64,000 nt of DNA from Candidatus Rokuibacteriota bacterium (GTDB lineage: Bacteria; Methylomirabilota; Methylomirabilia; Rokubacteriales; CSP1-6), in NCBI GenBank assembly GCA_003220495.1, contig QHSP01000017.1, positions 62,001 through 126,000 on the forward strand, in the 5' to 3' direction. Made by a program: the position numbers and the translations under genes. Position 1 is the stretch's first letter, and the number at the start of each line of letters is the position of its first letter. Below, one piece after another: positions 15,853-37,855 of the stretch. The notes below the pieces were generated by a model, which saw only the letters and a list, made by a program, of their open reading frames with translations, had not been told where the DNA came from and did not search any database.

Positions 15853-16803
15853 CTATCGCATTCGCGCGACCGAGGGCTCGACGTTCGAGCCGTCGGTGCT
15901 CACTCGCCCCTGCACGATATCGAAGTGCTCGAGGACGAATCGCAGCGCCGCCGGGCGGTCTCGCAGCGCCGCGGCGGTGTCGAGACCGAGGGGCGACCCG
16001 TCGGAGTGGATGTAGTCGAAGACGAGGTGCCCGCCGGGCTTCAGCACGCGGTAGAAGTGCTCGAGCGTCGCGAGCGGCCGGGGCAGGTGTTCGAAGACCT
16101 CGAGGCAGAAGACGGTGTCGTAGCGCCCCTGGAGCGGCGCGTCGTTGTTCGGTTCGATCGGAACCATCGTGACGAAATCGTCGGCGCGGAATTTCCAGCG
16201 GGCGTAGTGGAAAAGCAAGTGCGGAATGTCGGCCCCGACGCACTCGAGGTCGAGGTGTCGGTAGTGTCGGGCGAGCGCGGTCAGGATCGGCGCCGTCCCG
16301 CACCCGTACTCCACGACGCGGCCTCCGCGCGGCACGAACTTGGTGAAGGGGTGGGCGCGCAGCGGTGAGAGGGCTTGTCGATACGCGTGCGCGAACAGAT
16401 GGTAGACGACGCGAGAGTCGCGCCACGACTCGAGGTGCTTGTCGTCGGAGGCGAGCGTGGGGTCGGACATGTGATCGAAGCGCATGTCCTGAAGCCGCTG
16501 GCGGTACACACCGTGGAGGAAATAGAAGTCGTGGGGCTGGATCGGCCGGTTGCCGAGCTCGCCGACCCAGTAGCGCTGGAACTCGAGGAACCACCGGAGC
16601 CGCAGGTTCGCGTACATCAGGCGCCGGTGTAACCCGGACTTCACGAGCGCACCGAGACCGTAGAGTCGAGCGCGGCTCGCCAGTCGCCCGACGGGCCCCA
16701 GCCCGGCGCCGCTCCTGGCCCCCGGTGTCGGCGGTCGGAGCTTCGCATCTTGCTCCTTCAGCATCTGCGCGACATCGGGGCGGAAATCGTCGTAGTGGTT
16801 CAT
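15853..16803 (-). CDS. class I SAM-dependent methyltransferase
   Basis: GGRVVEYGCGTAPILTALARHYRHLDLECVGADI; FCLEVFEHLPRPLATLEHFYRVLKPGGHLVFDY. Confidence 0.9.
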   Translation of the reverse strand: MNHYDDFRPDVAQMLKEQDAKLRPPTPGARSGAGLGPVGRLASRARLYGLGALVKSGLHRRLMYANLRLRWFLEFQRYWVGELGNRPIQPHDFYFLHGVYRQRLQDMRFDHMSDPTLASDDKHLESWRDSRVVYHLFAHAYRQALSPLRAHPFTKFVPRGGRVVEYGCGTAPILTALARHYRHLDLECVGADIPHLLFHYARWKFRADDFVTMVPIEPNNDAPLQGRYDTVFCLEVFEHLPRPLATLEHFYRVLKPGGHLVFDYIHSDGSPLGLDTAAALRDRPAALRFVLEHFDIVQGRVSTDGSNVEPSVARMR

Positions 16804-16913
16804 CGGTCTGTGTCCTGTCTTATTCGATCCGTTCCCGCTGTGTCAAGGCCGTGGGCCGCGCCGCGGAGGCTCCCGAGTGGAGCACTTTTAGCTTGACGCG
16901 CTTTCGCCCGACG

Positions 16914-16930
16914 TGTTCACTTATTGAACA
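16914..16930. promoter_or_regulatory. 17-bp palindrome TGTTCACTTATTGAACA: candidate operator of the downstream wHTH gene
   Basis: Perfect inverted repeat TGTTCA-N5-TGAACA, 5 nt before the ATG at 16936; TTGACG (16893-16898) lies 15 nt upstream. Near-identical site at 34258-34274. Confidence 0.7.
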
Positions 16931-16935
16931 GTCTA

Positions 16936-17562
16936 ATGGAGCGACGGGGCGAGCGCGAGCTTGAGATCCTGACGGCGATCGCGGAGGGCGATTCCACCAC
17001 CCAGAGGGCGCTGGCCGCTCGCCTGGGCGTGGCCCTGGGGCTCACCAACCTCTATCTCAAGCGCCTGGTCAAGAAGGGTTACATCAAGGTGGTCGAGTTT
17101 CCGCGCCGACCCGCCGCGCGCAAGCGGCTGCGGTACCTGTTGACGGGACGGGGGATCGCGGAGAAGAGCCGGCTCACGTACGACCACATGGTCTACGCGC
17201 TCAACCTCTACCGGCGCGCTCGGCAGACCTTGCGCGAGTCGCTGAGCCGCCTGCCGGGCGCCGGCGTCAAGCGCGTCGCCCTCTACGGCACCGGCGAGGC
17301 GGCCGAGCTGGCCTACCTCACGCTCAAGGAGTTCGAGCTCGAGCCGCTGGGTATCTACGCCTCTCGCGGCGGCGGGACCTTCCTCGGCATTCCCGTGAAG
17401 CCGGTCGCCGAACTCGCCGACGAATCGCTCGACGCCGTCGTCATCGCGACCTTCGATCGCCCCGAGCCGCACGTCGCGGAGCTCGTCGGGTTCGGGGTCG
17501 CGCCCGCGAAGATCCTGACCCTGCGGGTGCCGGCGCCCGGCTCGGGAGTCCGCCGAGCATGA
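16936..17562 (+). CDS. winged helix-turn-helix regulator (MarR/EPS-associated type) fused to a PglD-N/CoA-binding-like Rossmann domain
   Basis: N-terminus GERELEILTAIAEGDSTTQRALAARLGVALGLTNLYLKRLVKKGYIKV (wHTH); C-terminus VKRVALYGTGEAAELAYLTLKEFELEPLGIYA...FLGIPVKPVAELADESLDAVVIATFDRPE (Rossmann). Confidence 0.82.
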   Translation: MERRGERELEILTAIAEGDSTTQRALAARLGVALGLTNLYLKRLVKKGYIKVVEFPRRPAARKRLRYLLTGRGIAEKSRLTYDHMVYALNLYRRARQTLRESLSRLPGAGVKRVALYGTGEAAELAYLTLKEFELEPLGIYASRGGGTFLGIPVKPVAELADESLDAVVIATFDRPEPHVAELVGFGVAPAKILTLRVPAPGSGVRRA

Positions 17563-18575
17563 GCGACGCGATGAGCCTCGGTCGGCGCATCGCCGCGCGG
17601 CTCGGGCCGGCAACTCTGGAGCGTGTCGGCGGGACCGGCCTCGCGAACGCCGAGCTGAACGCTCCGCGCATCCGCCACTCGCTGCTCGAGCTGGAAGGCA
17701 TCCCGCTTCGCCCGGGGAACGCCGCCATCGTGATCGGAGCGGGTCCGAGTCTCGTGCGACGGGCCAGCCTCGAGCGTCTCGCCCGCGCCGACTTCGCCGG
17801 AACGGTCGTGGCGGTCGACAGCGCGCTCGGAGCCTGCCTGCGTCATGGGATCGTCCCCGACGTCGTCCTCACCGTCGATCCGCATCCCGAGCGGATCGTG
17901 CGGTGGTTCGGCGACCCGGCGATGACGGCGCCGCTCGTCGACGACTATTTCCGGCGCCAGGAGATGGATCCGACGCACGCGGTCGACGAGGTCGGCGCCA
18001 ACCGGGCGCTGCTCGAGCTGGTGGACCGTCACGGACCCGAGATGCGCGTGGCCATCGCGACCTCGGCGTCGCCGGCGGTCGTGGATCGCTGCGAGAAAGC
18101 CGGGATGCGCCTCTACTGGTGGAATCCCATGTACGACGACTACGAGCAGCCCGGCAGCTTGTCGCGCCGGCTCCACCGGCTGAACCGGCTGCCGTGCCTG
18201 AACGGCGGCGGCAACGTCGGCACCGCCGCCTGGGTCGTGAGCCACGCGGTGCTCGGCAAGACGCGCCTGGGGCTGCTCGGCCTCGACTTCGGGTACGCGC
18301 CGGGCACGCCCTACGCGAAGACCCAGTACTACCCCGAGCTGCGGGAAATGTTCGGTGATCGGCTCTCGGAGGCGTTCATTCATCTCGAGAACCCCGTCCT
18401 CGGCGAGACCTGGTTCACCGACCCCGCCTACTACTGGTTTCGTGACGTGTTCCTCGAGATGGTCGCGTCGACCGCGTGCGAAACGGTGAATTGCACCGAG
18501 GGCGGCGTCCTGTTCGGACCCGGCATCAAGACAGCGCCCCTCGAGCGCTTCGTGGAGGAGTGCCGGCATGGCTAA
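17559..18575 (+). CDS. DUF115 (MptE/Maf-like) domain protein, candidate nonulosonate transferase
   Basis: AAIVIGAGPSLVRRASLERL...GTVVAVDSALGACLRHGIVPDVVLTVDPHPE matches the DUF115 pattern; ATGA overlap with the regulator. Confidence 0.78.
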   Translation: MSDAMSLGRRIAARLGPATLERVGGTGLANAELNAPRIRHSLLELEGIPLRPGNAAIVIGAGPSLVRRASLERLARADFAGTVVAVDSALGACLRHGIVPDVVLTVDPHPERIVRWFGDPAMTAPLVDDYFRRQEMDPTHAVDEVGANRALLELVDRHGPEMRVAIATSASPAVVDRCEKAGMRLYWWNPMYDDYEQPGSLSRRLHRLNRLPCLNGGGNVGTAAWVVSHAVLGKTRLGLLGLDFGYAPGTPYAKTQYYPELREMFGDRLSEAFIHLENPVLGETWFTDPAYYWFRDVFLEMVASTACETVNCTEGGVLFGPGIKTAPLERFVEECRHG

Positions 18576-20127
18576 GGTCCTGTTCATCAATCCCGTCATC
18601 CGCGAGGAGGACGAGCCGCGACATGTCCCCTACGGGCTGGCGCTGCTGGCGAGCATCGCGATGCGTGACGGGCATCAGGTGCAGGTGTACGACGCCAACG
18701 CCTGGCGAGCCTCCGACGACATTACCGCTCAGGTCCTGAAGGCCGATCGCTGGGACGTGATCGCCCTCGGCGGGATCACGACAGCCTATCGCTCCATCAA
18801 GCGCCTGGTGGCTATGGCCAAGGAGCTCGCTCCGCCGGCGCTGGTCGTCGCCGGCGGTGGCTTCATCACCAGCATGCCGCGCGACATCATGCGCTTCCTT
18901 CCCCAGGTCGACGTCGGCGTGGTTGGCGAGGGGTTCGTGTCGTTCCGGGCGCTGCTGCGCCGGGTGGACGCGGGACGGCGTGAGTGGGCGGACGTGCCGG
19001 GCCTCGTCTGGCGCGACGCCGACGGACGCACGCACCTGAACGCGGAGCAGCCGCTGCTCCAGGACATCGACTCGCTACCGTATCCGGCGTGGGAGCTGTT
19101 TCCCCTCGACGTGTACTTCAAGAACAGCATGGCGCTCTTCTCGGAAGAGGGCATGCTCGCGCGCCGGCGCCTCGACATCAACGCGAGCTACGGGTGCTCG
19201 CTGATCTGCCGGTTCTGCTTCCACCTCGGCATCGCCGGCGACCTCGAGCAGGTCACGGAGAACGGCGAGCGCGACGTGACGTTCACGCACCAGCGAGTCA
19301 TCCGCTATCACAGCCCGCGATACGTCGTGGACCTCGTGAAGTACGCGCGCTCGCGCTTCGGCATCGACTTCGTCGGCTTCCTGGACGAGAACCTCATGAC
19401 GATGCATCAGTACTCGGGCAAGCGCTGGCTCACGGACATCGCGCGGCTGTGGGTGGAGGAGGGGCTCCAGCCCCAGTGCGTGCGCGACGGCGTCACGCAC
19501 GATCCCGAGCGGTGCTCGGGCGTGCACTGGGGCGGCACCAGTCACGCGACCCTCTGCAATCCCGAGGTTCTTCACGCGATCAAGCAGGCCGGCTGCTCGC
19601 ACCTCGTGTACGGGTACGAGACCTTCTCGGCGCGCGTGATGAAGACGATCGGAAAAGGCGCCACGCCCGAGACCAACGAGCGCTCGCTCCGGTGGACCTT
19701 GGAGGCTGGGATCCGCCCGATCCCGAACCAGATGATCGGCTTCCCGGACGAGGATTTCGACAGCCTGCGTGACAACGTGGTGGCCTGGAACCGGCTCGGC
19801 CTGCAGGTGAAACCGTTCTTCGCCACGCCGTACCCCGGGACCGAGTGGTACCAGCAATACAAGCATCGGATCCTCGAGCAGTACGCCGGCGACCTCGAGG
19901 CCTTCATCCTCGACGTCGGGGACGCGACGCGGGTTACGGCGGTGATCTCCAAGAAGTTCAACGCGGTCGAGCTCTACGGGCTTCGCGAGCTCATGGTGCT
20001 GCGCGATCTCAAGCGGCTCGCCGACTACGAGACGGAGTGGAACCGGCTGCATCCGGTCGATCCTCTGGCCGGAGAAAAGGAAGCGTGGACACGCCGGTTC
20101 GGCCATGCCGTGAGGACGACATCGTGA
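18568..20127 (+). CDS. B12-binding domain-containing radical SAM protein
   Basis: N-terminal B12-binding-like region; radical SAM motif NASYGCSLICRFCFHLG (C-x3-C-x2-C). Confidence 0.93.
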   Translation: MAKVLFINPVIREEDEPRHVPYGLALLASIAMRDGHQVQVYDANAWRASDDITAQVLKADRWDVIALGGITTAYRSIKRLVAMAKELAPPALVVAGGGFITSMPRDIMRFLPQVDVGVVGEGFVSFRALLRRVDAGRREWADVPGLVWRDADGRTHLNAEQPLLQDIDSLPYPAWELFPLDVYFKNSMALFSEEGMLARRRLDINASYGCSLICRFCFHLGIAGDLEQVTENGERDVTFTHQRVIRYHSPRYVVDLVKYARSRFGIDFVGFLDENLMTMHQYSGKRWLTDIARLWVEEGLQPQCVRDGVTHDPERCSGVHWGGTSHATLCNPEVLHAIKQAGCSHLVYGYETFSARVMKTIGKGATPETNERSLRWTLEAGIRPIPNQMIGFPDEDFDSLRDNVVAWNRLGLQVKPFFATPYPGTEWYQQYKHRILEQYAGDLEAFILDVGDATRVTAVISKKFNAVELYGLRELMVLRDLKRLADYETEWNRLHPVDPLAGEKEAWTRRFGHAVRTTS

Positions 20128-21110
20128 AGCTGGCCGTCATCGGACTCGGATCGATTGGTCGCCGCCACCTCGGCAACTTTCACAGCGTCGGCGCCGAGAC
20201 CCTGGTCGCGTACGACACCGTGGCTGCCCAGCGGGCCGCGGCCGCCGCGCAGTTCCCGTACGCCACGATCGCTCCGACGCTCGAGGCGGCGCTCGATGGC
20301 GCGCAGGGCGTCATCGTCTGTACGCCCCCGGACGCGCATCTGAATCTGGCGCGGATGGCGGTCGAGCGCGGGCAGCACGTGATGATCGAGAAGCCGCTCA
20401 CGCAGACGGTGGATGGCGTCGAGGCGGTGCTGCGCGCGGCCGACGCGCGGGGACTGCGGGTGCTCACCGCCTACAACTGGCGCTACTGGCCGCCGATGCT
20501 GCTCGTCGAGCAGCTCCTGAAGGACGGACGCATCGGCGCCGTCCGGGCCGGCCGCACCGAGTACGCCTATCATCTCCCGTTCCACCGCTACCCGGGCCGC
20601 GACTACCGTGAGTTCTACATGGCCCAGGCCAAGCAGGGCGGCGGATGCGTGCTCGACGAGAGCCACGCGATCGACTACATGCGCTGGCTGCTCGGCGACA
20701 TCGTCGAGGTGAGCGCGGTCGTCGACCACATCTCGAGCCTCGAGATGGACACCGACGACATCGCCGACCTCACCGTCCGCTTCGCGTCCGGCTGCGTCGG
20801 CAACATCCACATGAACCTCTTCGCCTGGAACATGCACAGCCACTTCGAGCTGATGGGCGAGGACGGGGTCATCCAGTGGCGGCGGTTCGACAACGAGATC
20901 CGCGTCTTCGACCCGAAAGCCAACCGTTGGGAGATCTATCCGTTCGCGTGCCAGCTCAACGACATGTACGTCGAGGAGGCGCGGCACTTTCTGGCCTGCG
21001 TCCGCGGCGAGGCCGTCCCGCGCTGCGACGGCTGGGACGGCTTCAAGACGATGAAGGTCATCGACGCGGCCCGCCGCGCCTCCGCGGAGCGGCGCTGGGT
21101 CAAGGTCTGA
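20124..21110 (+). CDS. Gfo/Idh/MocA family oxidoreductase
   Basis: VKLAVIGLGSIGRRHLGNF; VIVCTPPDAHLNLARMAVERGQHVMIEKPLTQTVDG. Confidence 0.95.
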   Translation: MKLAVIGLGSIGRRHLGNFHSVGAETLVAYDTVAAQRAAAAAQFPYATIAPTLEAALDGAQGVIVCTPPDAHLNLARMAVERGQHVMIEKPLTQTVDGVEAVLRAADARGLRVLTAYNWRYWPPMLLVEQLLKDGRIGAVRAGRTEYAYHLPFHRYPGRDYREFYMAQAKQGGGCVLDESHAIDYMRWLLGDIVEVSAVVDHISSLEMDTDDIADLTVRFASGCVGNIHMNLFAWNMHSHFELMGEDGVIQWRRFDNEIRVFDPKANRWEIYPFACQLNDMYVEEARHFLACVRGEAVPRCDGWDGFKTMKVIDAARRASAERRWVKV

Positions 21111-21112
21111 CC

Positions 21113-21835
21113 GTGGCCGCCCCGTACGCGTTCGCCGTTATCCCGGCGCGCGGCGGCTCGAAGGGGCTCCCCGGCAAGAACCTTCGCCTGCTCGGGTCTC
21201 TCTCGTTGATCGCGCACGCCGTGGCGTCGTGCCGCGAGGCGAAGCGGCTGAGGCGATTCGTGGTCTCCACCGACAGCGAGAAGATCGCCGACGCCGCGCG
21301 CGCCGCAGGCGCCGAGGTGCCGTTCATACGCCCGGCCGAGCTGGCGACCGACGAGGCGGGTATGGTGCCGGTGCTCCAGCACGCCGTGCGGTGGCTCGAG
21401 GGGACGACCGGCGTTCGCCCGGACCTCGTCGTCACGATCCAGCCGACCTCGCCGTTCCGCGTCGGGGCCGACATCGATGAGACCATCGCGAAGATCGTCG
21501 CGACCGGGGCGGACTCCGCACAGACGGTGACGGAGGCCGCCTACCATCCATTTTTCATGAAGACGCTCGACGGTGACCGCACGGTCCCGCTCTTTCACGA
21601 GGGTCACAAGTACGTGCGGCGGCAGGACGCGCCGCCGGTGTACCAGCCGTCGGGCGCCGTCTACGTGACGAGCTACGAGGTGTTGATGCACGAGGGGCGC
21701 GTGCTCGGTCAGGACAACCGCGCGGTCGTCAGGGATTTCGAAGCCTCGGTCAACATCGACACGGAGTGGGACTTCCTGCTCGCGGAGCTTCTGCTCCGCC
21801 AGGGGCGGGCACCCGTCCCGCCCGAGCGCAGATAG
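21113..21835 (+). CDS. acylneuraminate cytidylyltransferase family (CMP-nonulosonate synthetase, NeuA/LegF-like)
   Basis: FAVIPARGGSKGLPGKNLRLLG; VTIQPTSPFRVGADIDETI; NIDTEWDFLLAE. Confidence 0.93.
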   Translation: MAAPYAFAVIPARGGSKGLPGKNLRLLGSLSLIAHAVASCREAKRLRRFVVSTDSEKIADAARAAGAEVPFIRPAELATDEAGMVPVLQHAVRWLEGTTGVRPDLVVTIQPTSPFRVGADIDETIAKIVATGADSAQTVTEAAYHPFFMKTLDGDRTVPLFHEGHKYVRRQDAPPVYQPSGAVYVTSYEVLMHEGRVLGQDNRAVVRDFEASVNIDTEWDFLLAELLLRQGRAPVPPERR

Positions 21836-21842
21836 CGTCCGG

Positions 21843-22463
21843 ATGCCCCGCCGCCTCCTGATCCTGGGCGCCGGAGGCCACGGTCGCGCCGTGGCGGACC
21901 TGGCCGCCGCGTGCGACTGGACGGTGGCCGGCTTCACCGACCGTCCGGGCGCCGACCCGCGCGTGCTGGGAGGCGACGAAGACCTGCCCGCGCTGGCGCG
22001 CTCCGCACCGATCGACGCGGGCGTGATCGGCGTCGGGAACTCGGCGCTCCAGCGGCGAGCGGAGCTCTTCGATCGCCTGCGCGAGTCGCGCCTGCCGATT
22101 CCAGCCCTCGTGCACCCCCGGGCGACGCTCTCGAGCTCCGCTCGCGTGAGCGCGGGCTCGGTCGTGTTTCCCGCGGCGGTTCTGGGCGCCGGAGTGACCG
22201 TCGCCGAGAACGTCGTCATCTACAGTGGTGCCGTCGTCGAGCACGACTGTCGGATCGCTGATCACGCGTACATCTCGCCGGGCGCCATCCTGTCGGGCGC
22301 CGTCGTCGTGGAGGTCGGGGCGTTCATCGGCGCGGGCGCCGTGATCCTGCCGGGCGTGACGATCGGCAAGCACGCCGTCGTCGGGGCCGGCGCCGTGGTG
22401 CTCGCGGACGTCCTTGCGGGCGAGACGGTGGCCGGCGTGCCGGCACGACCGCGCGGGGCTTGA
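21843..22463 (+). CDS. NeuD/PglD-family sugar O/N-acetyltransferase
   Basis: RRLLILGAGGHGRAVADLA; left-handed beta-helix hexapeptides VSAGSVVFPAAVLGAGVTVAENVVIYSGAVVEHDC. Confidence 0.92.
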   Translation: MPRRLLILGAGGHGRAVADLAAACDWTVAGFTDRPGADPRVLGGDEDLPALARSAPIDAGVIGVGNSALQRRAELFDRLRESRLPIPALVHPRATLSSSARVSAGSVVFPAAVLGAGVTVAENVVIYSGAVVEHDCRIADHAYISPGAILSGAVVVEVGAFIGAGAVILPGVTIGKHAVVGAGAVVLADVLAGETVAGVPARPRGA

Positions 22464-24426: not shown

Positions 24427-25490
24427 GCGCGTCACGCCAGAGGTTCGTCGTCAACGCGCGCGCGATCGGTGATGACGCGCCAGTATTCGTCGTGGCCGAG
24501 GCGGGGGTCAATCACAACGGTGACCCGGAGCAGGCCCGGCGCTTGATCGATGCCGCCAAGGAAGCCGGCGCCGACGCGGTGAAGTTCCAGACGTTTCGCA
24601 GCGACGCCCTGGTGAGCCGGCACGCGCCGAAGGCCGCCTACCAGCGTGCGACCACGGGCGACGACGGGACGCAGGCCGAGATGCTGGCGCGCCTCGAGCT
24701 CTCGCTGGAGCAGCATGTCGACCTGCGCGATCGCTGTGCGAAGCAGGGGCTCGTCTTCTTCTCGGCGCCGTTCGACGAGGCGAGCGTCGAGGCCCTCGCC
24801 GAGCTGGGCGTGAGTCTCTACAAGGTCCCGTCCGGCGAGATCACCAATCTTCCGCTGCTGGCCCGGATCGCGTCCAAGGGCAAGCCAGTGATCCTCTCGA
24901 CCGGCATGTCGACGCTCGACGAGGTCGCGGCGGCGGTCGCCACGATCCGCGGGGCGGGCGATCCTCCCCTCGCGCTGCTCCACTGCGTGAGCGCGTACCC
25001 GGCGCCGATCGAGGAGATGAATCTGCGCGCGATGAGTACCTTGCGCGACAGGTTCGGATGCCCGGTGGGACTCTCCGACCACACGCTCGGGATCGCGGTC
25101 GCGCTCGGCGCGGTCGCGCGCGGCGCGGCGATCGTCGAGAAGCATCTGACGCTCGACAAGGCCTTGCCAGGTCCCGACCACCGTGCGTCGCTCGAGCCCG
25201 GCGAGTTCGCCGAACTGGTGCGAGGCATTCGCGCGATCGAGGCGTCGCTCGGTGACGGCGACAAACGCCCCATGCCGTGCGAGGCGGACGTCCGGCGGGT
25301 GGCGCGCAAAAGTCTCGTCGCCGCGCGGGCCCTGCGCGCCGGCGAGATCCTGACCTCGGACGCGGTCGCGATCAAGCGCCCCGGCACTGGCATTCCGCCC
25401 TCCGCCCTGGCCTCCGTGCTCGGCCGCCGCGTCCGTCGCGACGTGCTGGCGGACGAGGTGCTGGACTGGGTCATGCTGGAGACGCATTGA
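24423..25490 (+). CDS. N-acetylneuraminate/legionaminate synthase (NeuB/LegI family, with SAF domain)
   Basis: FVVAEAGVNHNGDPEQARRLIDAAKEAGADAVKFQTF; GLSDHTLGIAVALGAVARGAAIVEKHLTLDK; RKSLVAARALRAGEIL. Confidence 0.95.
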   Translation: MSASRQRFVVNARAIGDDAPVFVVAEAGVNHNGDPEQARRLIDAAKEAGADAVKFQTFRSDALVSRHAPKAAYQRATTGDDGTQAEMLARLELSLEQHVDLRDRCAKQGLVFFSAPFDEASVEALAELGVSLYKVPSGEITNLPLLARIASKGKPVILSTGMSTLDEVAAAVATIRGAGDPPLALLHCVSAYPAPIEEMNLRAMSTLRDRFGCPVGLSDHTLGIAVALGAVARGAAIVEKHLTLDKALPGPDHRASLEPGEFAELVRGIRAIEASLGDGDKRPMPCEADVRRVARKSLVAARALRAGEILTSDAVAIKRPGTGIPPSALASVLGRRVRRDVLADEVLDWVMLETH

Positions 25491-26662
25491 CGCCGATCAC
25501 GCGCGCCATCGGCGTCGTGACGGTGAGCCGCTCGGACTACGGCCACCTGGTCCCCGTCCTGCACGAGATCCGTACCGCGCCCGACCTGCGTCTGGTCCTG
25601 TTCGTCGCCGGCGCGCATCTCTTGCCGCGCTTCGGCCGGACGGTCGACCTCGTCGAGGCCGACGGGTGGCCGATCGCGGCCTCGATCGACATGCTCGAGG
25701 CGGACGACTCGCCGGCAGGCATCGCCGCCTCGACGGCACGGGGTGTCGACGGCTTCGCGCGGGCTTTTGCCCGCCATCGTCCGGACGTGCTCGTCCTGAT
25801 GGGCGACCGGTTCGAGATGCTGGCGGCGGCGGTGGCGGCCTTGCCGCTGGTGGTGCCGGTCGCGCACATCCACGGCGGCGAAGAGTCCGAGGGCGCGATC
25901 GACAACCAGATCCGCCACGCGATCACAAAGCTCGCGCACGTACACTTCGCCTCCGCCGAGCCGCACGCGCGCCGCATCGCGCAGATGGGCGAGGAGCCGT
26001 GGCGCATCCACATGACTGGCGCGCCCGGTCTCGATCGGATCCGCCCGAGCGAGCTCCTGCGGCGCGGCGATGTCGCGGCAGCGATCGGGCTGCCGCAGGC
26101 CGGGCCGTGGCTCGTCGTGACCTTTCACCCGGTGACGCTCGAGTATCAGGACACCGAGCGCCACGTCGACGAGCTGCTGGCCGCGCTCGACAAGCTCGAG
26201 GCGACCCTGGTCCTCACGTACCCCGGGGCTGACACGGCCGGGCGCGCGATCATCGACCGTATCGAGGAGTTCGCGGGGCGCCACCCGAACGTGAGGCTCG
26301 TGACGAGCCTCGGGGACCGCCTCTATCTCTCGCTGCTCGAGCACGCCGACGCCATGGTCGGCAATTCGTCGAGCGGCCTGATCGAGGCGCCTTCGTTCGG
26401 GCTCCCGGCGGTCAACATCGGCAGCCGCCAAACCGGCCGCCTGCGCGGCGCCAACGTCATCGACGTCGCGCCCGAGCGTGACGACATCCTGAGCGCGATC
26501 GAGGCCGCGCTGGCGCCGGGCCTGCGGACGCGGCTGCGCGCGACGCCCAACCCGTACGGCGACGGCCGCGCGGCGCCGCGCATCGTCAAGGTGCTCAGAG
26601 AGGTCGAGTTGACGCCGCGGCTGGTCCGCAAGCGATTCGTCGAGACGGAGGGTGGAGCATGA
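25487..26662 (+). CDS. UDP-N-acetylglucosamine 2-epimerase (hydrolysing), NeuC/LegG family
   Basis: GVVTVSRSDYGHLVPVLHEI; GDRFEMLAAAVAA; AHIHGGEESEGAIDNQIRHAITKLAHVHF; VGNSSSGLIEAPSFGLPAVNIGSRQTGR; TTG start. Confidence 0.95.
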   Translation: MTPITRAIGVVTVSRSDYGHLVPVLHEIRTAPDLRLVLFVAGAHLLPRFGRTVDLVEADGWPIAASIDMLEADDSPAGIAASTARGVDGFARAFARHRPDVLVLMGDRFEMLAAAVAALPLVVPVAHIHGGEESEGAIDNQIRHAITKLAHVHFASAEPHARRIAQMGEEPWRIHMTGAPGLDRIRPSELLRRGDVAAAIGLPQAGPWLVVTFHPVTLEYQDTERHVDELLAALDKLEATLVLTYPGADTAGRAIIDRIEEFAGRHPNVRLVTSLGDRLYLSLLEHADAMVGNSSSGLIEAPSFGLPAVNIGSRQTGRLRGANVIDVAPERDDILSAIEAALAPGLRTRLRATPNPYGDGRAAPRIVKVLREVELTPRLVRKRFVETEGGA

Positions 26663-27714
26663 ACCTCGCCGAGGTTTGTGTCCCCGATACGGCGTCGCTG
26701 CGCGAGGCGCTCGAGCTCGTGACCCGGAGCGGCAAGCAGATCGCGCTGGTCGTCGCCGGCGACGCGACGTTGGCCGGTCTGGTGACCGATGGCGACGTGC
26801 GCAAGGCGATCCTGCGCGGCGTGGCGCTCGACGCGAAGGTGGTGGAGGCCATGAACCGGGCGCCCATCGTGGGCAGGCCCGGCATCGCGCGGGCGGAGGC
26901 ACTGGCGATGATGCGCCAGCGCCGGATCCGCCATCTGCCGCTGGTCGACGCCGGGGGACGCTTGCACGACCTCCTTCTGCTCGACGATCTCCTCGCGCCG
27001 CTCGCCCCCCTCGACACGCTAGCCGTCATCATGGCGGGCGGTGAAGGGCGCCGGCTCCTGCCCCTGACGCAGTCGACGCCCAAGCCGCTGCTCAAGGTCG
27101 GCGGCAAACCGCTGGTCGAGATTCTGATCGATCGCTTGCGCGAAGCCGGGATCCCCGAGGTGCTGGTCTCGGTCCACCACAAGTCGGACATGATCCGCGC
27201 CGCGCTCGGCGACGGCGAACGGCTCGGCGTCCGTCTCGAGTACGTGGAGGAGCCCAGGCCCCTCGGCACGATGGGCGCGCTGGCGCTCATCCGGCCCCGG
27301 CTCGACCGTCCCATCTTCGTCATCAACGGCGACATCCTCACCAAGTGCGATTTCCGCGCGATGTGGGAGTTTCACCTGCGCCAGACCGATGCCGCCATGA
27401 CGGTCGGCGTCTCGCTGCACCAGGTCGAGCTCCCGTTCGGTGAGCTGACGCTCGACGGCAACCGGGTCGAGCGGGTCGACGAGAAGCCGCGGAAGGAGTT
27501 TCCAGTGAACGCGGGGATCTACATTCTCAATCCATCGGCGGTCGAGGCGATCCCCGAGGGGGAGTACTGCGACGCGACGGACCTGATCCGGGTGCTCCTC
27601 GCCGGCGGTCGGCGCGTCGCCGCGTACGCGATCAACGAGTACTGGCTCGACGTGGGACGCCACGGCGATCTCGAGAAGGCGATTCGCGACGTGGCTGAAG
27701 GGCTCCTGGGGTGA
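26659..27714 (+). CDS. CBS-domain nucleotidyltransferase (PtmE-like sugar-1-phosphate guanylyltransferase)
   Basis: N-terminal CBS pair; NTP-transferase VIMAGGEGRRLLPLTQSTPKPLLKVGGKPLVEILID. PtmE is the CBS-NTP transferase of the Campylobacter legionaminate pathway. Confidence 0.9.
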   Translation: MNLAEVCVPDTASLREALELVTRSGKQIALVVAGDATLAGLVTDGDVRKAILRGVALDAKVVEAMNRAPIVGRPGIARAEALAMMRQRRIRHLPLVDAGGRLHDLLLLDDLLAPLAPLDTLAVIMAGGEGRRLLPLTQSTPKPLLKVGGKPLVEILIDRLREAGIPEVLVSVHHKSDMIRAALGDGERLGVRLEYVEEPRPLGTMGALALIRPRLDRPIFVINGDILTKCDFRAMWEFHLRQTDAAMTVGVSLHQVELPFGELTLDGNRVERVDEKPRKEFPVNAGIYILNPSAVEAIPEGEYCDATDLIRVLLAGGRRVAAYAINEYWLDVGRHGDLEKAIRDVAEGLLG

Positions 27715-29003
27715 GCCGCGTTCTCGTCGTCGGTCTGGGATACGTCGGAATCACCTTGACGGTGGCGCTCGCGCGCAAGGGCGTCACCGTGTACGGGTAC
27801 GACAAGAATCCCGATACCGTCGCCACCCTGGCGGCCGGGCGCCCGCACCTCTTCGAGCCGGGCATCGCCGAGGGCCTGCGCGCGTTCCTCGGCGGGACCA
27901 TTCACATCGCCGATCGTCCGCCGTCCGAGACTGTCGATGCGGCGATCATCTGTGTCTCGACGCCGGTCGTGGCCGCGACGCACATGCCGGATCTGGACAA
28001 CCTGCGCGCGGCGGCTCGGGCTGTCGCGGCGGAGTGCGCGCCGACCACGCTGGTGATCGTGCGAAGCACGGTACCCGTCGGCGCCAGTCGGCAGATCGTG
28101 CTCCCCGAGCTCGCGGCTCGCTGGGGCTGCGCCCGGCTCGCCTTTTGCCCCGAGCGGACCATCCAGGGCCAGGCGCTGCGTGAGCTCGAGCAGCTACCGC
28201 AGGTGGTCGGCGGTCTCGACGTCGAGAGTCGCGAGCGAGCGTCGGCCCTCTTCGCGCGGCTCACGACCCGCGTGATCCCGGTGTCGTCCCTGGAGGCCGC
28301 CGAGGCGGTCAAGCTCGTCAACAACTGCCACACCGATCTGATCTACTCGTTCGGCAACGAGGTCGCGCTGTTCGCCGAGCGGCTCGCGCTCGATCCGCTC
28401 GAGCTGATCCGCGCGGCGAATGTCGACTACCCACGGCCCGATCTGGCGCGGCCCGGATTCGTGGGCGGAGGCTGCCTGTCGAAGGACCCCTACATCCTGA
28501 TCGCGAGCTCTATTGCCGCCGGCTACGAGCCGTGGCTCGTCGCGCGGGCCAGGGGTCTGAACGAATACCTGCCGCTCCACGTGGCGCGGCGCTTCGTCGA
28601 GCTGATCCGGGAAACTCGCGGCGCGGTCGCCGGCGGTCGAGTGCTGCTGCTCGGCTTTGCCTACAAGGGCTGGCCGCCGACCGACGACATGCGGGGGGCG
28701 GCCGTGCTGCCAATCCTCGACGTGCTGCGCACCGAGGGGCTGGCCCTGCACGGCCACGATTTTCTCGTCGCGCCCGAGACCATTGCACGGCTCGGCGTGA
28801 CACCAGTCGCGCTCGACGAGGGCTTCGCCGGGGCCGACGCCGTGCTCGTCATCACCGATCATCCGGAGTACGGCAAGCAAGACCTGCCGAAGCTCCTCGC
28901 CTCGCTGCGGCGGCCAGCCGTCCTCTACGACTGCTGGCGAGCCCTCGACGAGGAAACCGTGCGCGCCGGCGGCATCCGCTATGCGTCGATCGGCTATGGG
29001 TAG
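27711..29003 (+). CDS. nucleotide sugar dehydrogenase (UDP-Glc/UDP-ManNAc dehydrogenase family)
   Basis: VLVVGLGYVGITLTVALARKGVTVYGYD; GFVGGGCLSKDPYIL; LGFAYKGWPPTDDMR. Confidence 0.93.
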   Translation: MSRVLVVGLGYVGITLTVALARKGVTVYGYDKNPDTVATLAAGRPHLFEPGIAEGLRAFLGGTIHIADRPPSETVDAAIICVSTPVVAATHMPDLDNLRAAARAVAAECAPTTLVIVRSTVPVGASRQIVLPELAARWGCARLAFCPERTIQGQALRELEQLPQVVGGLDVESRERASALFARLTTRVIPVSSLEAAEAVKLVNNCHTDLIYSFGNEVALFAERLALDPLELIRAANVDYPRPDLARPGFVGGGCLSKDPYILIASSIAAGYEPWLVARARGLNEYLPLHVARRFVELIRETRGAVAGGRVLLLGFAYKGWPPTDDMRGAAVLPILDVLRTEGLALHGHDFLVAPETIARLGVTPVALDEGFAGADAVLVITDHPEYGKQDLPKLLASLRRPAVLYDCWRALDEETVRAGGIRYASIGYG

Positions 29004-29973
29004 AGTGCTCCTGCTCGGCGGGGCTGGGTTCGTCGGCTATCACCTGGCCGAGCGCCTCAGCCGCGAGGCGGATGAAATCACGGTCGTGGACGATCTCTCG
29101 CGCGGGCGGATGGACGCCGAGCTTGAGTCGCTGCTGGCCAGGCCGAACGTCCGCTTCGTGCGGGCCGATCTCACGGCTCCCGCGTCGCTCGCCGACCTGC
29201 CGCGGGCGTGGGATCAGGTCTACGTGCTGGCCGCCGTCGTCGGCGTCCGCAACACGACGGCGGATCCGGCGCGTGTGATCCGGGTGAACACGCTGGCGAC
29301 CTTGAACGTCCTCGAGTGGCTGACGGCCGATGCCGGGGTCGTCTTCTTCGCCTCGACGAGCGAGGTCTACGCCGGGGGGGTGGCGCGCGGGCTGGTCCCG
29401 GTCCCGACGCCAGAGGACGTTCTGCTCTCGATCGACGACATCACCCATCCGCGCTTCGCGTACGCGGCCAGCAAGATCCTCGGCGAGGCCGCGACGCTCC
29501 ACTACGCCGACAAAAAGGGCTTCCCCGTCGTGGTGGGGCGATTCCACAACATCTACGGCCCGCGCATGGGCGTCGATCACGTCATCCCGGAGCTCTGCTT
29601 GCGCGCTCTCGACCGCGAGGATCCCTTCCGGGTGTTCGGCCTCGAGCAGCAGCGCGCGTTCTGCCACGTCGCCGACGCGCTCGAGGCGATCACGCGTCTC
29701 ATGGCGGCAGAGCACGCCTGGGGGCAGATCGTCAACATCGGGAACGATACCGACGAGACGCGTGTGTCGGACCTGCTCGCGCTGATCCTGAGAATCGCGA
29801 AGTTCACACCGACGCTCGGTCCCGCGCCGGCCCCGTCCGGTTCGGTCGCGCGAAGGTGCCCCGACCTCTCGAGGCTGCGCGCGCTGACCGGCTTCGCGCC
29901 GAAGGTCTCCCTCGAGCACGGTGTCCGCGAGACCTTCGACTGGTACCGAGCCTGGCACGGGAGTCGACGATGA
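28996..29973 (+). CDS. NAD-dependent epimerase/dehydratase (UDP-glucuronate decarboxylase-like)
   Basis: VLLLGGAGFVGYHLAERLS; FFASTSEVYAGG; YAASKILGEA; GRFHNIYGPRMG. Confidence 0.9.
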   Translation: MGRVLLLGGAGFVGYHLAERLSREADEITVVDDLSRGRMDAELESLLARPNVRFVRADLTAPASLADLPRAWDQVYVLAAVVGVRNTTADPARVIRVNTLATLNVLEWLTADAGVVFFASTSEVYAGGVARGLVPVPTPEDVLLSIDDITHPRFAYAASKILGEAATLHYADKKGFPVVVGRFHNIYGPRMGVDHVIPELCLRALDREDPFRVFGLEQQRAFCHVADALEAITRLMAAEHAWGQIVNIGNDTDETRVSDLLALILRIAKFTPTLGPAPAPSGSVARRCPDLSRLRALTGFAPKVSLEHGVRETFDWYRAWHGSRR

Positions 29974-31124
29974 GCGGAGTCATCCCCAACGCGGTGCCGT
30001 TTCTCGGCGGTAACGAGTGGAAGTACCTCAAGGAATGCCTGGACTCGAACTGGGTGTCCTCGGCCGGGCCGTTCATCGAGCGGTTCGAGCGCGGAGTGGC
30101 GACCTACGTCGGCGCTCGGCACGCCGTCGCGACCGTCAACGGCACTGCGGCGCTGCACCTGGCGTTGCTGGTCGCGGGGGTCCGCCCGGGCGACGAGGTG
30201 CTCGTGCCGAGCTTCACCTTCATCGCCACCGCCAACGCTGTGCGCTATTGCGGCGCATTCCCCGTGTTCATGGACTCCGAGCCCGGGACCTGGTGCATCG
30301 ACCCGGTCAAGGTCGAGGAATTCCTCGCGACACGCTGCGAGACGCGAGGCGACCGGCTCGTGAATCGCGGGAGCGGGCGTCGCGTCGCGGCGCTCTTGCC
30401 GGTCCACCTCTACGGGCATCCGGCCGACCTCGACGCGCTGGCCGCACTGACCAGACGCTATCCGCTGGCCCTCGTGGAGGACACCACCGAGGCCCTCGGT
30501 GCCGAGTACAAGGGCCGCCGGGTGGGCGTGCACGAGCGCGTCGCCTGCCTGTCCTTCAACGGCAACAAGATCATCACGTGTGGCGGCGGTGGCATGGTGC
30601 TGACCGACGACCCGGCGCTGGCCCGCCGCGCCGCGCTGCTCTCGACCCAGGGCCGCACGCCCGGCGCGGAGTTCGTCCACGAGGAAGTCGGCTACAACTA
30701 CCGGCTGACGAACATCCAGGCCGCGCTCGGGCTCGCCCAGCTCGAGCAGCTCGATCGTTTCGTGGAGGACAAGCGGCAGACGGCCCGCTATTATGCCGAG
30801 GCGCTCCGCGTCCTCGATGGCATCGAGCCGTTTTGCGAGCAGCCCTGGGCGCGCTCGTCGTACTGGATGTCGTCGGTCATGCTCGATCCCAGCGCCTGGG
30901 ACGACGTACGCACGCTCATTCAGAAGGCGAAGGCCGCGTCGATCGAGCTTCGCCCGCTCTGGTATCCGCTCCACCGGCAGCCGGTGTTCGCCGAGTGCGA
31001 AGCTTTCCGGGTCGAGCACGCCGATGCGCTCCACGCGCGCGGGGTGTCGCTGCCCTGCTCGGTCGGGATCACGCCCGAGGCCCGCGCACGCGTCGTGGCC
31101 TTCCTGGCGGGCGAGCGCCGCTGA
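29970..31124 (+). CDS. DegT/DnrJ/EryC1/StrS aminotransferase, LegC-like
   Basis: PFLGGNEWKYLKECLDSNWVSSAGPFIERFE; GTAALHLALL; LSFNGNKIITCGGGGMVLTDD (PLP lysine). Confidence 0.92.
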   Translation: MSGVIPNAVPFLGGNEWKYLKECLDSNWVSSAGPFIERFERGVATYVGARHAVATVNGTAALHLALLVAGVRPGDEVLVPSFTFIATANAVRYCGAFPVFMDSEPGTWCIDPVKVEEFLATRCETRGDRLVNRGSGRRVAALLPVHLYGHPADLDALAALTRRYPLALVEDTTEALGAEYKGRRVGVHERVACLSFNGNKIITCGGGGMVLTDDPALARRAALLSTQGRTPGAEFVHEEVGYNYRLTNIQAALGLAQLEQLDRFVEDKRQTARYYAEALRVLDGIEPFCEQPWARSSYWMSSVMLDPSAWDDVRTLIQKAKAASIELRPLWYPLHRQPVFAECEAFRVEHADALHARGVSLPCSVGITPEARARVVAFLAGERR

Positions 31125-34226: not shown

Positions 34227-34257
34227 GAGAATTCGGTTGACGAATCGACGAGTTGCG

Positions 34258-34274
34258 TGTTCGACTATTGAACA
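34258..34274. promoter_or_regulatory. 17-bp palindrome TGTTCGACTATTGAACA: second copy of the candidate operator
   Basis: TGTTC-N7-GAACA, 14/17 identical to 16914-16930; TTGACG (34237-34242) 15 nt upstream, the same spacing as the first copy. Confidence 0.7.
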
Positions 34275-34306: not shown

Positions 34307-34495
34307 ATGACCGAATACCTCAAAGGTAACTACCAGCTCGACACGATCATTACGGCCGCCGAGGGTGACGAGGCCGATTCGACGAGCGAATTCGAGAAGA
34401 AGGCGCTGTCACGACTCGGCGGGAGCATCTGCTTCGTGAGCAAGAAGGGCTTCCTCTGGAAGGGGGAGGGCGCGAGCGACGACCCGTGCAAATAG
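34307..34495 (+). CDS. small hypothetical protein (62 aa) upstream of DegT aminotransferase
   Basis: GGAGGA (34292-34297) 9 nt before ATG; MTEYLKGNYQLDTIITAAEGDEADSTSEFEKKALSRLGGSICFVSKKGFLWKGEGASDDPCK; stop overlaps the next start. Confidence 0.6.
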   Translation: MTEYLKGNYQLDTIITAAEGDEADSTSEFEKKALSRLGGSICFVSKKGFLWKGEGASDDPCK

Positions 34496-35604
34496 GCGGC
34501 GGCCGCATCCCAGTCTACGCGCCGGTTCTCGGTGACGAAGAGCTTGAGAATGTCGTGGCGGCGGTTCGTTCCGGATGGGTCAGCTCGCTCGGCACCTTCA
34601 TCCCCGAATTCGAGCGCGAGTTCGCCACCTTCTGCGACGTCCGTGAAGCCGTCGCGGTTTCCAACGGCACCGCCGCCCTCCACCTGGCGCTCCTCGCGCT
34701 GGGGGTGGGCCCCGGCGACGAGGTCCTCGTCCCGAGCCTGACCTTCATCGCGACGGCCAACGCCGTCCGCTACTGCGGCGCGACCCCGATCTTCGTCGAC
34801 GCCGATCGGGCGACCTGGTGCATCGATCCAGCCGCGCTCGACGCGCTCGTCACGCCGCGGACGAAGGCGGTGATCCCCGTGCACCTGTACGGGCACCCGT
34901 GCGACATGGATCCGATCCTCGACGTCGCGCGTCGCCGCGGGATCGCGGTCGTCGAGGACGCCGCCGAGGCGCACGGCGCGGAGTATCGCGGCCGGCGGGT
35001 GGGGGCATTCGGCGCGATCGGCTGCTTCTCGTTCTACGGCAACAAGATCATGACGACGGGCGAGGGGGGCATGTGCGTGACCGATGACCCGCTCCTCGCC
35101 GAGCGCCTGCGCCTCCTGCGTGACCACGGGATGGATCCCAAGCGCCACTACTGGCACGATATCGTCGGCTACAACTATCGGATGACGAATCTCCAGGCGG
35201 CGATCGGCGTCGCGCAGGTGAAGAAGCTGCCGGGCTTCCTCGAGAAGAAACGGCGGCTGGGCGCCTGGTACGCCGAGCTGCTCGCGCCCCTGGCCGCCGC
35301 CGGTCGGATTGTCATGCAGCCCGAGGCGCCGTGGGCGAAGAGCGTGTTCTGGATGTGCTCGGTCCTTCTCGCCGAGGCCCGAGTCTCGCGCGACGAGGTT
35401 CGCGCGCGTCTCCACGATCGCGGCGTCGACACGCGACCCTTCTTCCACCCCGTGCACTTGCTGCCGCCGTACGAGCGTCGCGAGCGTCTTGCCGTCGCGG
35501 AAGATCTCGGCGGGCGCGGCCTGAACCTTCCTTCGGGGCTCGGTCTCGACCGAAGCCATATCGAGCGCGTTGCCAAGGCACTGACCGAAGCGCTCGACCC
35601 GTAA
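34486..35604 (+). CDS. DegT/DnrJ/EryC1/StrS family aminotransferase
   Basis: GTAALHLALLALGVGPGDEVLVPSLTFIATANAVRYCGATPIFVDADRATWCIDP; FSFYGNKIMTTGEGGMCVTDD. Confidence 0.95.
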   Translation: MQIGGGRIPVYAPVLGDEELENVVAAVRSGWVSSLGTFIPEFEREFATFCDVREAVAVSNGTAALHLALLALGVGPGDEVLVPSLTFIATANAVRYCGATPIFVDADRATWCIDPAALDALVTPRTKAVIPVHLYGHPCDMDPILDVARRRGIAVVEDAAEAHGAEYRGRRVGAFGAIGCFSFYGNKIMTTGEGGMCVTDDPLLAERLRLLRDHGMDPKRHYWHDIVGYNYRMTNLQAAIGVAQVKKLPGFLEKKRRLGAWYAELLAPLAAAGRIVMQPEAPWAKSVFWMCSVLLAEARVSRDEVRARLHDRGVDTRPFFHPVHLLPPYERRERLAVAEDLGGRGLNLPSGLGLDRSHIERVAKALTEALDP

Positions 35605-35606
35605 CG

Positions 35607-36731
35607 ATGGCGTGGCGCATCCCGGTGGCTCGCCCGGACATCGGCGACGCCGAGCTCGAGGCTGTCCGCGCTGTCATCGAACGGCGCTGGCTCACTCAAG
35701 GGCCCGAAGTCCGAGCGCTCGAGGCGGCCTTCGCCCGCTTCTGTCGCGTCGAGCACGCCGTGGCCACCAACACCGGAACCGCGGCGCTCCACGTCGCGCT
35801 GCTCGCGCTCGAGATCGGCTCTGGTGATGAGGTCATCACGACCCCGTTGTCGTGCATCGCGTCCGCGAATCCCATCCTGTTTCAGGGCGCGTGTCCCGTC
35901 TTCGCCGACGTGGAGCGAGCCACCTACAATCTCGATCCGGCCGACGTCGAGAAGCGAATCACGCCGCGGACGAAAGCCATCCTGCCCGTGCACCTCTTCG
36001 GTCATCCGGCCGACATGGACCCGCTGCTCGAGGTGGCCGAGCGCCACGGGCTGCCGGTGATCGAGGACGCCTCGCAGGCGGCCGGAGCGGAGTACAAGGG
36101 GCGGCGGGTCGGCGGGCTCGGCAAGGTGGCCGCCTTCAGCATGTACGCGAACAAGATCGTCACCGCGGGTGAGGGCGGCATGCTCACCACGCTGGATGCT
36201 CGACTCGCCGAGCGGATGATCGCGATCCGTAACTTCGGCCAGCCGGCCGGCCAGCACTTTCTCCATCCGTTTCTCGGTGGAAATTACAAGATGAGCGATC
36301 TCCACGCGGCCATCGGGCGCGTCCAGCTCGACCGCGTCGAGCGCTTCATCGAGCAGCGCCGACGCAATGTCGTCGAGCTCGGCCGGGCGCTGGCGCCGCT
36401 GCGTGGGCTGATCGACCGCCTGCCGGATGAGCAGCCCGGTCACCGAGCGGCGCCGTTCGCGTACCACCTTCTGTTCCGAAGCCCCGCCTTCCGCGACGCG
36501 GCCGACGAGGCGCTCCACGCGGCCTCCATCGAAACGCGCCCGTTCTTCTCGCTGATCAACGACCAGCCGCCCTACCGGGCGCTCGGCTACGATCCGGTCG
36601 ATACGCCGGTCGCCGCCGACGTGTTCTCACGGGGGCTCTACGTCTCGAATTCGCCCGATCTCACCGCCGACGAACGTGCGCTCGTCGTGCAGACCCTGAC
36701 CGGCGTGGCGCGGACGCTGGGCGTTGCATGA
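35607..36731 (+). CDS. DegT/DnrJ/EryC1/StrS family aminotransferase
   Basis: GTAALHVALLALEIGSGDEVITTPLSCIASANPILFQGACPVFADVE; FSMYANKIVTAGEGGML. Confidence 0.94.
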   Translation: MAWRIPVARPDIGDAELEAVRAVIERRWLTQGPEVRALEAAFARFCRVEHAVATNTGTAALHVALLALEIGSGDEVITTPLSCIASANPILFQGACPVFADVERATYNLDPADVEKRITPRTKAILPVHLFGHPADMDPLLEVAERHGLPVIEDASQAAGAEYKGRRVGGLGKVAAFSMYANKIVTAGEGGMLTTLDARLAERMIAIRNFGQPAGQHFLHPFLGGNYKMSDLHAAIGRVQLDRVERFIEQRRRNVVELGRALAPLRGLIDRLPDEQPGHRAAPFAYHLLFRSPAFRDAADEALHAASIETRPFFSLINDQPPYRALGYDPVDTPVAADVFSRGLYVSNSPDLTADERALVVQTLTGVARTLGVA

Positions 36732-37855
36732 GGATCTGCTCGCCCCACTGCGGCATCGCGCCGGAGTCGGGGTCCGGCGGCGAGGTGTACGAGCGCGAGC
36801 TCCTCAAGGACCTGGCGGGGTTGGGCGTGGAGTGCCACATCCCGCTGGCGCAGGGCAAGCCTCACGACCAGGACGTGCCCGGCTGGACCATGCACCCGGT
36901 GTGGCCTCCGAAGGGGCTCCGTTGGTACGTCGCGCCGTTCGTATGGCCACGGGCGATCAAGCGCGTGTGGGACGCTCAGCCCTTCGACCTCCTGCGCGCG
37001 CATTCCGTGCGCTTCATCGGTCCTGCCGCGCTCCTCGCGCGCCGCCGCTATCGGCTGCCCGTCCCCGTCGTGACGCACCACCACCACCTGGATCCGAGCC
37101 CGCTCAATCCGTACATCGAGAAACGGGTGCTCGACGCCTCCGACCGGGTGATCACCGACAGCGAGTTCGCCCGCCGTCAGCTCGCCGACGAGCTCGGGCT
37201 CCGCACCGATCACGTGACCGTCGTCTACTGTGGCGTCGGACCGAAGTACGCGCCGATGCCGAAGGACAAGGCGCTCCTCGCGCGCTATGGGCTCGAGGGC
37301 CGTCAGGTTCTCCTCTGTCTGGGACCGCTCATCCACCGAAAGAACCCGTTCTTCCTCGTCGAAGCCTTCGCCGAGATCCGACGCGCCGCGCCCGGACCGG
37401 TGGCACTCGTCTGGGTCGGCGCCGGCCCGCTCCGCGCCGAGCTGACCGCGCTCGCCCGAAAGCTCGGCCTCGAGGGCGACGTGATCTTCACGGGCTACGT
37501 GCCCGAGGTCGAGAAGGTTCCTACGCTCAATCTGGCCGACGTTTTCGTCTTTCCTTCCTTGCTCGAGGGCTTCCCGCTGGCGCCGCAGGAGGCGATGTCG
37601 TGTGGCAAGCCGGTCGTCGCCTTCCGCGTGGCCTCGCTCGGAGAGATGGTGGACGACGGGCAGTCGGGATTCCTCGTAGGCAAGAACGACCGGAGCGCGT
37701 TCGTCGCGCGCGTGCTCGCCCTGCTGCGCGACCGTGATCTCCTCGCGCGATTCGGCAAGGCCTCAGCGGAGCGCGTGGACCGGAACTTCCGCTGGGACAT
37801 GACCGTGCGTCGCGTGCTGAAGGTCTATCAAGAGGTCGTCGATGGGTTCCGCTGA
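36728..37855 (+). CDS. glycosyltransferase family 4
   Basis: MRICSPHCGIAPESGSGGEVYERELL; VFPSLLEGFPLAPQEAMSCGKPVVAFRVASLGEMV. Confidence 0.93.
   Translation: MRICSPHCGIAPESGSGGEVYERELLKDLAGLGVECHIPLAQGKPHDQDVPGWTMHPVWPPKGLRWYVAPFVWPRAIKRVWDAQPFDLLRAHSVRFIGPAALLARRRYRLPVPVVTHHHHLDPSPLNPYIEKRVLDASDRVITDSEFARRQLADELGLRTDHVTVVYCGVGPKYAPMPKDKALLARYGLEGRQVLLCLGPLIHRKNPFFLVEAFAEIRRAAPGPVALVWVGAGPLRAELTALARKLGLEGDVIFTGYVPEVEKVPTLNLADVFVFPSLLEGFPLAPQEAMSCGKPVVAFRVASLGEMVDDGQSGFLVGKNDRSAFVARVLALLRDRDLLARFGKASAERVDRNFRWDMTVRRVLKVYQEVVDGFR

Follow-up and report, generated by a model that had tools for sequence, protein, structure and literature searches.

The regulator locus

The regulator REG is encoded on the plus strand at 16936..17562 of the window, by which we mean the whole 64,000-nucleotide stretch of DNA that was analysed. 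Its reading frame is unbroken, starts with ATG, and gives a protein of 208 aa on translation of the window, and its stop is overlapped by 4 bp by the next gene (17559..18575). REG is not a chance open reading frame, because 30 further Methylomirabilota genomes encode a homologue, mostly at full length. As the original prediction had placed it, REG heads a nonulosonic acid (NulO) operon, with homologues of NeuA, NeuD, NeuB, and NeuC downstream. The genes and sites of the locus are listed below.

15853..16803, minus strand: divergent SAM methyltransferase (Methyltransf_23, 3e-18), sharing its intergenic region with operator 1
16893..16897, plus strand: TTGAC box lying 16 nt ahead of operator 1, a candidate -35 element
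16914..16930: operator 1, TGTTCA-CTTAT-TGAACA, an inverted repeat without mismatch, 5 bp ahead of the start codon of REG
16936..17562, plus strand: REG, two-domain regulator of 208 aa (open reading frame, translation, homologues, AlphaFold2)
17559..18575, plus strand: MptE-like/DUF115 (Maf-like) protein (PF01973, 1.5e-14)
18568..20127, plus strand: B12-binding radical SAM protein (PF02310, PF04055)
20124..21110, plus strand: Gfo/Idh-type oxidoreductase
21125..21835, plus strand: CMP-NulO cytidylyltransferase, NeuA/PseF-like (PseF, 4e-40, below cut-off)
21843..22463, plus strand: NeuD/PglD-type sugar acetyltransferase (TIGR03570, 1e-57, above cut-off)
24444..25490, plus strand: NeuB, nonulosonic acid synthase (TIGR03569, 453 bits against a cut-off of 399.65)
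25487..26662, plus strand: NeuC, UDP-GlcNAc 2-epimerase (TIGR03568, 437 bits, above cut-off)
26659..27714, plus strand: CBS plus sugar-1-phosphate nucleotidyltransferase
27711..31124, plus strand: nucleotide-sugar dehydrogenase, LegB-like SDR, and DegT aminotransferase, where the operon ends
34237..34241, plus strand: TTGAC box of the second operon's promoter
34258..34274: operator 2, TGTTCG-ACTAT-TGAACA, before a second surface-sugar operon
34307..38684, plus strand: second operon, behind operator 2

The NeuD/PglD-type acetyltransferase (21843..22463) carries a PglD_N domain of its own (4.5e-9), and the DegT aminotransferase of the NulO operon was assigned from its own sequence and its relatives. 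The second operon encodes a 62-aa ORF, two DegT aminotransferases, a glycosyltransferase, and a methyltransferase; the 62-aa ORF, at 34307-34495 directly behind operator 2, is unassigned. Two adjacent minus-strand ORFs between the operons, at 31149-31973 and 31849-32619, had no Pfam match and are kept at 57-61% identity beside the REG loci in L051 and L052.

Domains and distribution of the REG family

The whole REG chain was modelled by AlphaFold2 with 87 homologues (pLDDT 92.1, pTM 0.79), and the protein was divided as follows.

16936..17175, plus strand: winged-helix DNA-binding domain of MarR/EPS type, residues 1-80 (HTH_24, TIGR04176)
17146..17244, plus strand: 33-residue helix, residues 71-103 (AlphaFold2 secondary structure)
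17266..17526, plus strand: Rossmann-type domain, residues 111-197 (AlphaFold2 of the domain alone, Foldseek)

Pfam searches of the N-terminus gave matches to HTH_24 (E 2e-10, 40.5 bits against a gathering score of 21.9) and to MarR_2 (27.0 bits, exactly at the 27.0 cut-off), both of which place REG in the MarR/winged-helix superfamily. TIGR04176 (MarR_EPS) aligned with residues 6-100 at E 4e-17, and all 87 of the 87 aligned homologues matched both HTH_24 and TIGR04176. The HTH_24 and TIGR04176 matches agree with the predicted resemblance of the winged helix to EPS-associated MarR regulators. Membership in MarR_EPS itself was rejected, as the TIGR04176 score of 62.1 bits lies below the curated cut-off of 88 bits and REG has 208 aa compared with about 105 aa in the single-domain form. 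The 33-residue helix is presumed to be the dimerisation helix, a role drawn from knowledge of the MarR family.

The C-terminal domain was not resolved by sequence searches of the window REG alone against PDB and Pfam, where CoA_binding was its single match, below threshold (E 0.04, Pfam); it took profiles of homologues and a predicted structure to assign it. AlphaFold2 gave a Rossmann-type model of the isolated domain (pLDDT 91.7, pTM 0.83), with alternating beta-alpha elements and a glycine-containing first loop. Foldseek aligned this domain with Rossmann domains at TM 0.6-0.7 (by query length). Its neighbours were CAC2185 (PDB 2g6t), which was the top match at 2.5e-4, 3nkl, which is deposited as UDP-quinovosamine 4-dehydrogenase, Rex repressors, and PerB, the acetyltransferase of GDP-perosamine. 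Among the 87 homologues, the C-terminal stretch matched NeuD/TIGR03570 in 37 (best 1.1e-5, sub-threshold), C2185-like_N in 13 (best 1.6e-5), CoA_binding in 7, Methyltransf_14 in 6 (best 3e-8), and PglD_N in 6 at E up to 0.1 (best 8e-4). With the model, the Foldseek matches, and the NeuD/TIGR03570 matches, the proposed kinship to the N-terminal nucleotide-binding Rossmann domain of NeuD/PglD proved right at superfamily level. REG was not accepted as a PglD_N/NeuD member, as the window REG has no PF17836 match and the hexapeptide beta-helix acetyltransferase domain is absent.

The first loop of the domain has the family consensus GxG[DE]xAE, which reads GTGEAAE in the window REG. Position 123, the third glycine of the classical GxGxxG, is Ala in 77% of homologues, and acidic residues are found at positions 121 (D/E in 98%) and 124 (E in 95%), where classical Rossmann proteins bind phosphate. 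This loop departs from the classical phosphate-binding type. Many members of the clade of the window REG also lack the Asp that closes strand 2, and the window REG itself has A142 there. Distant groups all keep G118, and E124 and D166 are almost as constant. Identity between groups was 26% in the Rossmann domain compared with 48% in the winged helix.

REG is single-copy in its own genome. A search at E 1e-10 gave REG in 31 of 95 Methylomirabilota genomes, counting the one from which the window comes; three of the matches are fragments, and the homologues in this group were mostly full length with 45-72% identity to REG. In a wider search with a nine-member profile at E 1e-15, the genomes with a match numbered 96 of 248 in a Rhodospirillales-like order, 106 of 241 in the class to which a Desulfobacteraceae member belongs, and 76 of 237 in Omnitrophota. 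Because some of the matches in the second set and many in the third are winged helix only, these two counts should be read as maxima for the two-domain form. The same architecture was present in Methylomirabilota, Alphaproteobacteria, Desulfobacteria, Omnitrophota, and one Chloroflexi genome. No Methylomirabilota match exceeded the TIGR04176 cut-off, and no single-domain member was found in this group at E 1e-8, so REG is the sole candidate reader of EPS-MarR type in Methylomirabilota.

A winged-helix tree, built on about 105 columns and with many forks unresolved, set the sampled single-domain proteins apart as one group and arranged most two-domain proteins largely by phylum. REG is best explained as a one-component transcription factor from a branch of EPS-associated MarR proteins that has two domains. 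The open-access literature that we searched contained no description of the two-domain family or its operator, and the open papers gave nothing relevant on a sensor of this kind. In two Omnitrophota REG is fused to a sugar-1-phosphate nucleotidyltransferase (L093:1501-2916 and L095:661-2079). A further Omnitrophota subfamily (L105-L121) has the same winged helix and operator, and its C-terminal part is shortened and diverged.

To compare gene context, we counted NeuB genes in REG-positive and REG-negative Methylomirabilota genomes and found them in 23 of 31 and 12 of 63, respectively (Fisher p 3e-7). Among the loci of Methylomirabilota and Alphaproteobacteria with enough downstream sequence, 30 of 36 had NeuB downstream on the same strand. 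By type, the Methylomirabilota loci comprised 7 Neu/Leg-type, 7 Pse-type, 2 with other NeuB, and 1 with none, and the Alphaproteobacteria loci comprised 10 Neu/Leg-type, 4 Pse-type, and 5 with none. Loci with enough sequence in the other groups were 3 Neu/Leg-type and 10 without NeuB in Desulfobacteria, and 2 with and 2 without NeuB in Omnitrophota. Most loci lacking NeuB still hold other surface-sugar genes, although L174, L185, and a small number of others showed no surface-sugar genes in the sequence read; in Desulfobacteria the majority of loci are for surface sugars other than NulO. Nearly all the homologues examined sit in surface-sugar loci, in keeping with the predicted link to polysaccharide synthesis. 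Since most Desulfobacteria loci have no NeuB downstream, we rejected the idea that one NulO-specific ligand serves the entire family. As downstream gene content varies from clade to clade, we expect either a clade-specific ligand or a common precursor.

A conserved palindrome before REG

The main new result is the conserved palindrome TGTTCA-N5-TGAACA before REG, which the original prediction had not mentioned. The pattern GTTC-N7-GAAC was present within 200 bp upstream of full-length homologues in 34 of 34 Alphaproteobacteria (29 with two or more copies), 24 of 27 Methylomirabilota, 9 of 13 Omnitrophota, and 15 of 33 Desulfobacteria. The control patterns (N6, N8, and reversed) gave about one locus each in the same 200-bp scan. 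A number of sites in Desulfobacteria are found 100-500 bp ahead of the REG gene, and within 600 bp upstream the palindrome was found for 114 of 129 homologues. Near-perfect sites away from the REG upstream region numbered two in 66 large loci (1.07 Mb). Single-domain EPS-type MarR genes are preceded by the same palindrome, and for this reason it is probably the shared winged helix that reads it.

The palindrome was accompanied by a TTGAC box, located at -20 to -22 from GTTC in 20 of 26 Methylomirabilota loci and at -21 or -22 in 22 of 29 Desulfobacteria loci. TTGAC abuts the first palindrome copy in 21 of 34 Alphaproteobacteria, where two tandem copies lie over -35 and -10. Operators 1 and 2 of the window share the TTGAC-N16 spacing, for which 100 shuffles gave 0 matches. 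A -10 hexamer was not recognisable in the window REG promoter.

Genome-wide counts were obtained by pattern searches with the stringent operator pattern TGTTCRN5YGAACA. The 5.98-Mb genome contained three matches, two of them in the window (operators 1 and 2). The third, on contig C97, was put down to chance and rejected as an operator, being GC-rich and close to unrelated ORFs. For REG-positive relatives, 18 of 22 stringent matches were within 2 kb upstream of REG, and the remaining four consisted of one at 15 kb from REG on the same contig and three GC-rich matches elsewhere. Three REG-negative genomes showed one stringent match each, all GC-rich and isolated.

In 13 of 33 Desulfobacteria loci the leader ahead of REG also contains a conserved element around GGCGGAGCT, whose consensus is close to TGTAAYCCACCAGGCGGAGCTATA (L173, L180, L185, L186, L178, L181, L005, L128, L135, L147, L150, L149, and L143), with 0 occurrences in the non-Desulfobacteria groups of REG homologues. 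An Rfam search of these leaders returned no known RNA, and the element is possibly an ops-like pause or antitermination element. At L009:8358-8861, a gene judged from its sequence to encode a NusG/RfaH-like antiterminator lies directly after REG.

Proposed mechanism and nearest known systems

The architecture, the operator, and the local regulon follow from sequence comparison. We consider it likely on balance that REG represses its own gene together with a local set of surface-sugar genes, with gating by the Rossmann domain. REG, presumably as a dimer, would bind the 17-bp palindrome overlapping the promoter of its own operon, and binding at this site is strongly supported by the upstream comparisons. 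From the position of the site, REG very probably represses, because the site covers the -10/start region or, in Alphaproteobacteria, the TTGAC box itself. The local regulon in the window genome would consist of the REG-headed NulO operon and the next surface-sugar operon at 34258. Binding of a metabolite by the Rossmann domain would probably gate DNA binding, and through it the cell could adjust NulO output by feedback. A nucleotide sugar is the first guess because of the domain's relatives, the nucleotidyltransferase fusion, and the gene context; a pathway nucleotide or nucleotide sugar is accordingly our best guess for the ligand, one that may well be wrong. The original prediction had REG possibly sensing a nucleotide sugar or a CoA derivative from the pathway.

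Two other readings concern the Rossmann domain. It could bind NAD(H)/NADP(H), so that REG would be a Rex-like redox sensor coupling surface-sugar synthesis to redox state. Rex-family repressors of the same domain order were the top whole-chain Foldseek matches (3wg9, 6e-5), Rex was among the isolated-domain matches, and a few homologues match Rex models weakly. However, whole-chain superposition on Rex was poor (TM 0.33), GxG[DE]xAE stands in place of GxGxxG, the context is surface sugars, and the operator is unlike the Rex site, TTGTGAA-N4-TTCACAA, which makes a redox sensor distinctly unlikely. A degenerate, ligand-free Rossmann scaffold, used to form the dimer or to touch an enzyme of the pathway (the sugar-1-phosphate nucleotidyltransferase, for example), would fit the low conservation of the domain, the acidic residues at the usual phosphate site, the fusion in two Omnitrophota, and the operator retained by the Omnitrophota subfamily with a shortened C-terminal part. 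The invariant G118 and near-invariant E124 and D166 across distant groups suggest a kept local function instead, and we regard loss of ligand binding as unlikely.

The remaining readings concern the site. Activation of the operon by REG, with no repression, would agree with the existence of autoregulatory activators and with the Desulfobacteria sites at 100-500 bp from the gene, but the palindrome lies at a fixed distance downstream of the TTGAC box, and in Alphaproteobacteria two tandem copies cover -35 and -10, so that we hold activation to be very unlikely. It is extremely improbable that the palindrome belongs to another regulator and is next to REG by coincidence. The single stringent matches in three REG-negative genomes could be taken that way, but they are GC-rich and isolated, and the site accompanies REG and single-domain EPS-MarR genes across phyla.

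If autoregulatory repression with Rossmann gating is right, the operator would provide a predictable mark for locating surface-sugar regulons, including those of legionaminic and pseudaminic type, in phyla with few cultured members, and REG would be a compact system in which to test how metabolites directly control glycan synthesis. A more tentative and rather doubtful extension is that REG represents a cross-phylum class of one-component regulators, in which a Rossmann domain sensing a nucleotide sugar is joined to an EPS-type winged helix with an ancient shared operator code and exerts feedback on NulO and other surface sugars.

REG would work like an autoregulatory repressor of MarR or Rex type, yet it lacks defining features of MarR_EPS, Rex, and PglD_N. 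TIGR04176 MarR_EPS proteins share the winged helix and the start of the long helix, and these single-domain relatives have the same operator; however, they are about 105 aa long, have no Rossmann domain, and are separate in the tree. Rex has a winged helix followed by a Rossmann domain and was the top whole-chain Foldseek match, but its winged helix belongs to another family; REG was rejected as a Rex member on its GxGxxG motif, which is not intact, and its different operator. The N-terminal Rossmann domain of NeuD/PglD/PerB shares the fold, and 37 of 87 homologues resemble it in sequence below threshold, while REG has neither the left-handed beta-helix catalytic domain nor a PglD_N match. CAC2185 (2g6t, C2185-like_N), the best structural match of the domain with a profile match in 13 members, differs in architecture and is itself uncharacterised. 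Methyltransf_14, the C-terminal domain of sugar C-methyltransferases, is matched by 6 of 87 domains of the family, whereas REG has no methyltransferase domain and the window REG no Methyltransf_14 match.
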